From: Clostridia bacterium
GTDB lineage: Bacteria; Bacillota; Clostridia; Peptostreptococcales; Acidaminobacteraceae
Length of the DNA stretch: 64,000 nt
Reading direction: 5' to 3'
Assembly: GCA_014859095.1 (NCBI GenBank)
Contig: JACUUV010000008.1
Location: 1 to 64,000 of the forward strand
Positions 11,315 to 12,994 of this stretch are shown piece after piece. Every line of letters begins with the position of its first letter. The stretch's first letter is position 1. The position numbers were made by a program, and so were the translations under genes. The notes beneath the pieces are model-generated. The model ran no database searches. It was not told the DNA's origin and saw nothing but the letters and a program-made list of their open reading frames with translations.

Positions 11315-12922
11315 ATGAATAAATTATCGGTATCCTTGAGGACATTTTCACTTACACTTTTTTCAACCGCACTCATCATAGCTTTGGTTTTATCAAACCA
11401 ATCCACTTTAGTTGTCATAATCGGTCTGGTACTTGCATTCATTATTGAAAACCTGTATTTGCGCATCTTATTGAAAAAGCAGATTGTGTATGTGGATACC
11501 TACTTCAACAAAATGGGGTCCGGCGATGTAACCGCCAAGCTCGACTCTAGAGTTTGCAGTGATTTTTATAAGCTTGCTGAAACAGTACAAAGCAACAACA
11601 AGAACACAAAGTTGATTGTGGGAAAAATGCTTTCCACATCGGAAAAATTGCTCAACCTCATTGAGATCCTTAAAAAATCAGGCGACGAAATGGCGTCTTC
11701 TTTCGTTCAGGTCTCCCACAACATAAGTGAAATAACAGAAGCACTTGACAATATGGCAAAAGATACCCTTGATATGCAAACCGATGCCTATCAAATGATG
11801 GATGATATGAATGCGGTGACTGATAATGCAACAAAAACAGAATCGCTGTCCTCTGTCATGAAAAGCAATCTTGACACTACCAATTCCAATACAGTAGAAC
11901 TTATCCAAAGGATGAAGAAAAGTTCAAATCAGAATAGCTTGATTTCCGATGACATCAAATCACTTTCAGATGATATGACCAGTATCATGGATATCGTGAA
12001 AATCATAAGTGACATTTCAGACAAAACGAATTTACTTGCGCTCAACGCATCAATAGAAGCAGCCAGAGCCGGCGATGCAGGCCGTGGATTTGCGGTTGTA
12101 GCTGAGGAAGTTCGCAAATTGGCGGAACAATCCAATGATTCTTCCGAAAAAATCAGTCAAATCATACACGCTGTCGTTACTAAAACAGAAAGTATCGCTG
12201 AGAAAATGTTCAAAGAAGTTAAACAATCTGATGATAATGTAGGTTATGCCGACCAATCCAACAATTTTCTGAAAGAAAGCTTTAATTCAGTCAATGCAAC
12301 ACTTGAGATGGTCAGAGAAATCCTGAACCGGGCCAATAAACAAAAGCATACGACTGAAGTTGTTTATGAGTTGATCAAGAACATTTCCAATGAGAGCCAG
12401 GAAGTCACAGCGAATATTGAGGAGACCTCTTCCCTCACAGAAATCCAACTCAACAGTCTAAATGACATCACAGCTTCCATACACCATTTGCATAGTATTT
12501 CAAATCAATTGGCTGACAATGCGGATCAATACAAGAAAGGATTGACAGTTGGCAAAGAGATTTCCGATAAGGTGGACAAATCATTGATTTATCTAAAGCA
12601 AAATGTCAGTCAGATTTCGGACACTCCCATTGAGCGCATCAGTCAAAGCGTATTGAAGAAAATCAAAGAGGGTTCCCCCGATTATGAACTCGTCGCACTG
12701 ATGAATGACAAAGGTATCGCCACCCAATTCTCACAAGATGTTGGTGGCAAGAGTATTGATGTCTCCCATAGACCGTTTTATAAAAAATCGATAATTGGAG
12801 CTGATTATAAATCTGAGCCTTATATATCCTCCATTACGAATGAATATTGCATAACTGTATCCACTCCAGTTAAATCGAACAACAAGATTACAGGTGTGGT
12901 TTCTCTTGATATCACCTTATGA
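11315..12922 (+). CDS. methyl-accepting chemotaxis protein with C-terminal Cache-like domain
   Basis: 535 residues. Two adjoining N-terminal membrane helices (about 10-55) have almost no external loop, so there is no ordinary extracellular sensor. A HAMP-like stretch ([11 protein letters not shown]) follows, then the signalling coiled coil with the conserved tip [20 protein letters not shown] at about residues 240-260. After the signalling domain comes an extra domain of about 85 residues with the marks of a PDC/Cache sensor: [26 protein letters not shown] and GVVSLDI at the very end. Placed here it would be cytosolic. The ligand is unknown. GAGGAG precedes the ATG. Confidence 0.92.
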
Positions 12923-12930
12923 CCCATGAA

Positions 12931-12981
12931 CGAATAAAATCCCCGATAAGCGCCTACTCAGCTTATCAGGGATTTTATTCG
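12931..12981. terminator. bidirectional terminator between chemoreceptor and pyrR
   Basis: A 21-base arm (12931-12951) pairs with 12961-12981 with a single mismatch around a 9-base loop. The A/T-rich outer stem gives a T tract in both directions, so it can serve both convergent genes. Confidence 0.85.
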
Positions 12982-12994
12982 TATTTATACGCAA

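Follow-up and report, generated by a model that had tools for sequence, protein, structure and literature searches.

A chemoreceptor gene in the window (the whole stretch of 64,000 nucleotides of Clostridia bacterium DNA analysed here, contig JACUUV010000008.1) encodes, according to the ORF list and its translation, a protein of 535 residues plus stop in which a single Cache/PDC module follows the signalling hairpin and forms the C-terminus. The module has a predicted Cache fold and conserved pocket residues, and the same domain order recurs among relatives. The receptor probably senses a cytosolic small molecule through this module, likely a small carboxylate or an amino-acid-like ligand, and the signal would be relayed through the N-terminal helix of the module and a HAMP-like junction. 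The coordinates of the features are collected in Table 1.

Table 1. Coordinates of the receptor, its parts and pocket residues (window positions), and of related CheW proteins
Feature	Position	Strand	Basis or genomes
Whole chemoreceptor ORF	11315..12922	+	Full-length relatives at 92 and 90 % identity
N-terminal membrane hairpin, residues 6-53	11330..11473	+	Hydropathy; model helices 6-26, 31-68
HAMP-like segment, about residues 54-98, GD connector G70/D71	11474..11608	+	Model; G70 conservation
Signalling hairpin helices, residues 82-408	11558..12538	+	Full-length model; PF00015 at 11948-12388
Hairpin tip, residues 238-263	12026..12103	+	Conservation in 12 and 38 rows
Cache/PDC module at the C-terminus, first helix included (residues 414-535)	12554..12919	+	Pfam, AlphaFold, Foldseek, VIA-align
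R486, equivalent of KinD R131 and PctA R126	12770..12772	+	Alignments; R in 93 % of 74 C-terminal rows
Y503, equivalent of PctA Y144	12821..12823	+	Alignment; Y in all 74 C-terminal rows
C512, aligned with PctA I153; its strand carries known pocket residues	12848..12850	+	Conservation rows
D532, equivalent of PctA D173	12908..12910	+	D in 92 % of 74 C-terminal and 37 % of 19 N-terminal rows
CheW-Cache proteins	L143:748-1578, L151-L155		Genomes G810, G559, G614, G638, G486, G524

Domain order of the receptor

The signalling domain MCPsignal (PF00015) was matched at residues 212-358 with 121.4 bits, against a cut-off of 34.6 (whole-protein E 4.7e-35), and 18 of the 26 residues of the hairpin tip are invariant across 12 aligned rows, the majority being so across 38 rows as well; with this domain and the conserved tip the window protein is an MCP. 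In known receptors the tip is the core that binds CheA and CheW. The chemotaxis partners of an MCP are encoded in the same genome, where CheW was found at four places and flagellin at two, along with MCPs at 11 places.

The segment that precedes the hairpin is called HAMP-like on the basis of the full-length model, in which one helix ends at residue 68, a break spans 69-81 and the next helix starts at 82, and of the GD motif, whose G70 is kept in at least 90 % of the alignment rows; Pfam listed no HAMP match in the window protein up to E 10. The full-length AlphaFold model was built from 38 rows and has a mean pLDDT of 86.8 and a pTM of only 0.51, with helices at residues 6-26, 31-68, 82-408 and 414-434. 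The AlphaFold models of this work represent monomers, whereas working receptors are dimers.

The C-terminal module and its predicted fold

Residues 461-535 were assigned by Pfam to MCP-like_PDC_1 (PF22673; 36.5 bits, cut-off 27, E 7.1e-9), which together with the Cache fold of the predicted model, a long N-terminal helix and an antiparallel sheet, places the C-terminal part in the Cache superfamily. When the tail alone was compared with dCache_1 (PF02743), only the first half of the family was matched (positions 58-151 of 240), with 36.8 bits and below the cut-off of 45. The protein stops after one module, whereas dCache_1 comprises two, and it has no hydrophobic helix past the signalling hairpin, whereas dCache_1 lies outside between two membrane helices.

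Residues 400-535 were modelled with AlphaFold from 45 of the fetched C-terminal modules (alignment A3, which omits L008, a carrier of another domain, as well as L011, L062 and repeat fetches, which are copies or near-copies). The model has a mean pLDDT of 91.1 and a Cache-type order of elements, with helices at 414-433, 444-451 (short) and 487-492 and strands at 457-464, 468-472, 511-521 and 524-534; the core of the beta sheet starts at residue 457. The closest solved protein is PctA with the single sequence (E 1.9e-5) and KinD with the family profile (E 7.8e-12); the sequence neighbours with structures are sensor domains located outside the cell, from chemoreceptors and from KinD, a sporulation kinase. 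Foldseek placed Tlp3 (E 8.4e-8) and KinD (1.2e-7) at the top of the solved matches, and VIA-align gave KinD (4jgo) a Z of 16.4 with an rmsd of 2.6 over 123 residues; the lower rows of VIA-align include WalK, Mlp24, DctB, CitA and PctA, and further families may stand beyond this list. In the model, the C-terminal part is folded as a Cache module. An earlier note, made from the DNA alone, had placed a Cache/PDC domain after the signalling coiled coil at 12560-12922; the profile match, the predicted fold of the tail and the likeness to KinD bear this out, and the limits given there agree with those of the module in Table 1.

Membrane topology and place in the signalling unit

Hydropathy locates the N-terminal membrane helices at about residues 8-49 (the hydropathy segments, 12-30 and 35-53, are numbered in an ORF with four extra leading residues). 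The loop between them has few residues and there is no extracytoplasmic domain, in agreement with the earlier note, which had described almost no outside loop. Positive charges are found ahead of the helix pair (K3 and R9) and behind it (R50, K54 and K55), so that both ends are expected inside. After the signalling domain, neither hydropathy nor the model reveals a membrane helix in the window protein. Among 66 C-terminal rows, only three weak hydrophobic stretches occur past the hairpin tip (in L013, L073 and L075), and these map to the last Cache strands; three of the 66 (L015, L016 and L017) lack the N-terminal membrane helix by hydropathy, and L017, compared by eye, differs little from a protein of 487 aa in Acetoanaerobium noterae. 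Since the window protein has no membrane helix beyond the signalling domain, and three relatives lack one altogether, the predicted topology lends good support to a cytosolic Cache module, which the earlier note had also assumed.

In contrast, the proposal that the sensor would sit at the far end of the signalling unit was rejected. The signalling domain is a hairpin whose tip lies near residue 250 and which folds back in the full-length model, so that the C-terminus returns towards the membrane and the Cache module is not at the far end. In this model, the only isolated bridge residues are 71, in the GD connector, and 411, in the linker to the Cache module, which suggests that the two are paired and that the linker runs beside the HAMP-like connector.

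Recurrence of the domain order among relatives

The prevalence of the C-terminal order was estimated with a profile (A2) of the last 196 residues built from 12 rows, a qualifying match to which spans the hairpin helix, the linker and the Cache; a genome was counted if it had a row of at least 79 bits beginning at profile position 41 or before, and the own genome was included each time. By profile score, the order is present in at least 37 of 391 genomes of the class, distributed in at least eight families, in at least 60 of 398 genomes of the phylum and in 12 of the 41 genomes of the own family; up to eight candidates per genome were scored in the class and phylum searches, whose counts are therefore lower bounds, and the domain order itself was checked in the fetched loci. 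The rule missed genome G036, yet its protein (L150) has a C-terminal Cache. Among the matches listed in the class search, one row lies between 79.9 and 56.0 bits (66.2 bits, a partial match to positions 2-147), and rows at or below 56.0 bits mostly match just one of the two parts, Cache or hairpin. The range of 50-80 bits in the phylum search is filled without a gap and was sorted by position for a few loci; L148 (105 bits) and L149 (80 bits), from this search, are receptors with an outside N-terminal Cache. The arrangement for which the earlier note had suggested a survey is thus a recurrent one by score.

Inclusion was passed by 103 modules, of which 72 were C-terminal, 19 N-terminal and 12, set aside, had no recognised tip; L056, L059, L060 and L112 of these twelve look C-terminal, and none of the other eight carries the Cys described below. 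Spacing and topology were counted with a stricter tip pattern (66 C-terminal, 18 N-terminal and 19 remaining modules), and pocket residues with a wider one after identical modules had been dropped (74 C-terminal and 19 N-terminal, without L148 and L149). All modules were found with a profile derived from C-terminal ones, and the N-terminal set is the part most similar to these. From hairpin tip to protein end, 65 of 66 C-terminal rows measure 290-299 residues (213 in the exception, L075) and the 18 N-terminal rows 144-195, and such a nearly constant spacing argues that the C-terminal order is not due to chance. The module is kept in relatives at 20-30 % identity.

A tree of 93 modules (86 columns, many forks open) did not resolve C-terminal and N-terminal modules as two clean clades; it implies at least two changes of position and at least five changes of the Cys. 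Two relatives occur in plasmid records, of which one is 2.6 Mb long. The record NZ_CP154629.1 of Acetoanaerobium noterae, of 2.6 Mb and with four annotated features, is named a plasmid and has a chromosome-like size.

Pocket residues and the conserved cysteine

In the alignment with PctA, R126 corresponds to R486, W128 to F488, Y129 to Y489, Y144 to Y503, D146 to S505, I153 to C512 and D173 to D532, and Y121 falls on I481 by gap-free extension. Two positions of the amino-acid motif are changed, Y121 and D146, the latter of which we take to be a further position of this motif. KinD R131, which is altered in the entries 4jgq and 4jgr, also aligns with R486; the complex of KinD with pyruvate is 4jgp. 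The motif has been reported as PctA Y121, R126, W128, Y129, Y144 and D173, with R126 as the carboxylate contact and D173 common to amino-acid and amine receptors (PMC10104139, in part). R486, F488, Y489, Y503 and D532 fit the motif or differ conservatively, unlike I481 and S505, and dCache_1AA was rejected as a class for the module since two motif positions differ. In the 19 N-terminal modules the Arg is present in 100 %, the Tyr in 53 %, the Asp in 37 % and the Cys in none.

Position 512 is Cys in 55 of 74 C-terminal rows (74 %) and in 0 of 19 N-terminal rows, and the next Cys column reaches 12 %. The other 19 C-terminal rows have N, T, I, A or S; Asn occurs in eight rows, seven of which form one supported clade, and six of those seven carry Cys at 483 instead. 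Position 485 is His in only 32 of 72 C-terminal rows. With the later-fetched L148 and L149 the Cys count among N-terminal modules becomes 1 of 21, given that the Cys occurs in the first module of L148 (L148:1123-3099, genome G611), which is an outside receptor with a full dCache_1 and HAMP and scores among the C-terminal set; an exclusive association of the Cys with cytosolic modules was rejected for this reason. The orientation of these residues to the pocket is deduced from alignment and strand parity. M215 and S217 of PctD, residues of the amine motif (PMC10104139, in part), would fall on the strand and face of C512, counted either from the aromatic pair or from the shared Asp.

A megaplasmid of Acidithiobacillus caldus (NZ_CP005987.1) encodes a protein annotated as 'PDC sensor domain-containing protein' (L128:2474-3412), in which a Cache module close to the N-terminus has this Cys as well; hydrophobic segments, recognised by eye, follow the module.

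CheW proteins with an internal Cache

All six genomes of one genus of the phylum encode a CheW-like protein with a related Cache between two CheW halves; the protein is present in six of the 17 genomes of its class and in none of the 11 outside the genus. For one of the six, Pfam matched CheW in two stretches with a Cache in between; the other five align to it over the full length with 76-95 % identity. The Cys is present in the six modules. In the one locus inspected more widely, the gene has neighbours on the opposite strand that look by eye like flagellar rod-type genes; no relatives of these proteins were confirmed in viral contigs. The location of a Cache inside CheW brings such a module into the cytosol and to the array by a second route.

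Relation to known systems

A subfamily of chemoreceptors whose ligand-binding domain is C-terminal has been described as poorly characterised; at least 17 Pfam domain types occur in that place, with CZB as the commonest (PMC7390727, in part); under the definition given there the window protein belongs to this subfamily, given that a domain of ligand-binding type follows its signalling domain. C-terminal domains have also been reported in archaeal receptors (PMC9680633, in part). Cache domains are the main outside sensors of prokaryotes, 78 % of them being confidently extracellular and two small families principally intracellular, and a C-terminal membrane helix is given as their sole way of signalling (PMC4822843, in part). 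The earlier note had contemplated that the order could already be widely described for this receptor class. C-terminal sensors in chemoreceptors are indeed known, and Cache may be among their 17 types; a C-terminal or cytosolic Cache in a chemoreceptor was not found described in the literature searched, which left most subscription papers outside its coverage, so that this absence is unproven.

CZB receptors, such as TlpD of Helicobacter pylori (PMC13001251, in part), also have a cytosolic sensor after the signalling hairpin, and TlpD is soluble, as are some relatives of the window receptor; however, CZB is a zinc-binding domain unrelated to the Cache. The sensors of PctA, Tlp3, Mlp24 and KinD share the fold and the pocket positions of the window module (R126/R131, an aromatic, Y144 and D173, in PctA numbering), but they are located outside and have two modules, whereas the window receptor has one, C-terminal and predicted to be cytosolic; in addition, modules of the window type often have Cys in place of I153 and are changed at Y121 and D146. 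YkuI_C follows its output domain, which in YkuI is EAL. YkuI_C and Diacid_rec are principally intracellular members of the Cache superfamily (PMC4822843, in part), a location also predicted for the window module, yet they have other output domains, belong to other Pfam families and are not chemoreceptors.

Proposed mechanism and alternatives

We propose that the two N-terminal helices anchor the receptor in the membrane without an outside sensor, and that after the HAMP-like bend the chain would enter a canonical signalling hairpin, with CheW and CheA at its tip, and run back towards the membrane. At this proximal end a single Cache, corresponding to the first, ligand-binding half of dCache_1, would be joined by its N-terminal helix at a fixed register, and its pocket would present the Arg, the aromatic residue, the Tyr and the Asp as in outside Caches that hold small carboxylates or amino acids, plus the Cys. 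Binding of a cytosolic ligand, most likely a carboxylate or an amino-acid-like compound, could shift the N-terminal helix of the Cache relative to the HAMP-like connector and the bundle, and this shift would change the activity of CheA. The suggestion of the earlier note that the domain may report a metabolite is a reasonable one.

The Cys brings in a different reading, in which the Cache is a redox or metal sensor whose pocket Cys, accompanied by His485 in many rows, meets oxidants or holds a metal or a cofactor; anaerobes would use the receptor to avoid oxygen or oxidative stress. No other Cys column of the C-terminal modules comes close to C512 in frequency, the Cys is absent from the 19 N-terminal ones, and the relatives are Clostridia and kin, among which there are many anaerobes. 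Nonetheless, only one Cys is conserved, His485 is missing from more than half of the rows, Asn replaces the Cys in some of them, the outside N-terminal Cache of L148 has the same Cys, and the Arg, Tyr and Asp of the pocket are better conserved than the Cys, and we regard this reading as unlikely. The conservation of these ligand-type residues (R486, Y503 and D532 in 92-100 % of the 74 modules) also speaks against a mainly structural module, that is, a dimerisation or docking cap that steadies a short receptor or its place in the array and has no ligand of its own. In favour of such a cap are the fixed register to the signalling hairpin and the contact with the HAMP-like connector implied by the model, and Cache and PAS modules often dimerise; even so, its chances seem somewhat smaller still. 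It is scarcely credible that a gene fusion left the tail behind as a decayed, functionless piece of an outside dCache receptor: although only the first of the two dCache_1 modules is matched, the module persists at low identity and in several families of the class with its pocket conserved, and the gene order is conserved near home.

The reading of the module as a sensor of a cytosolic ligand admits a wider, tentative version, which we consider possible though doubtful. A lineage of isolated, mostly Cys-bearing Caches may serve as an internal sensor of chemotaxis arrays, inserted at more than one place, namely the C-termini of short receptors, membrane-bound or soluble, in Clostridia and their relatives, and the interior of a CheW-type protein in one genus. 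Such Caches would read a cytosolic metabolite, the Cys adding a thiol chemistry or selectivity that most outside Caches lack, and their output would pass through the N-terminal helix, the reverse of the usual C-terminal one. If this is true, a Cache can work inside the cell and in reverse, joined by its N-terminal helix only. The receptor would then offer a compact model for studying how swimming is guided by a metabolite inside the cell, and the conserved pocket residues make ligand and mutation tests directly feasible.

Gene context and further observations

Upstream of the receptor gene there are, in this order, an NFACT-type gene, a gene for a 246-aa protein without Pfam match and one for a DUF308 protein; after it follow two genes on the opposite strand, one for a PyrR-like phosphoribosyltransferase and one RluD-like, and a pair of genes for ThrE-type exporters (the names NFACT, PyrR and RluD were assigned by eye). 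The same order was found in L136 and L138, from two genomes of another genus, the second ThrE gene of L138 being absent from the list, and in the close relative L030 within its stretch, which starts after the NFACT gene. This context fits the vertical inheritance of a chromosomal gene. The shared block consists of mixed housekeeping genes and says little on function, and the neighbours were therefore rejected as a clue to the ligand.

The own genome encodes a second receptor with a domain after the signalling hairpin (C92; G000, L008:958-2505), which gives a weak, partial match to dCache_1 (E 5.8e-4); no clear solved relative of this domain was found by sequence. In two genomes of one family (L059 in G064 and L060 in G098) the genes of C-terminal Cache receptors lie, by eye, directly upstream of a gpr-like gene for a spore germination protease. 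In the window, an inverted repeat recognised by eye at 12930-12985, between the convergent receptor and PyrR-like genes, could end both transcripts.
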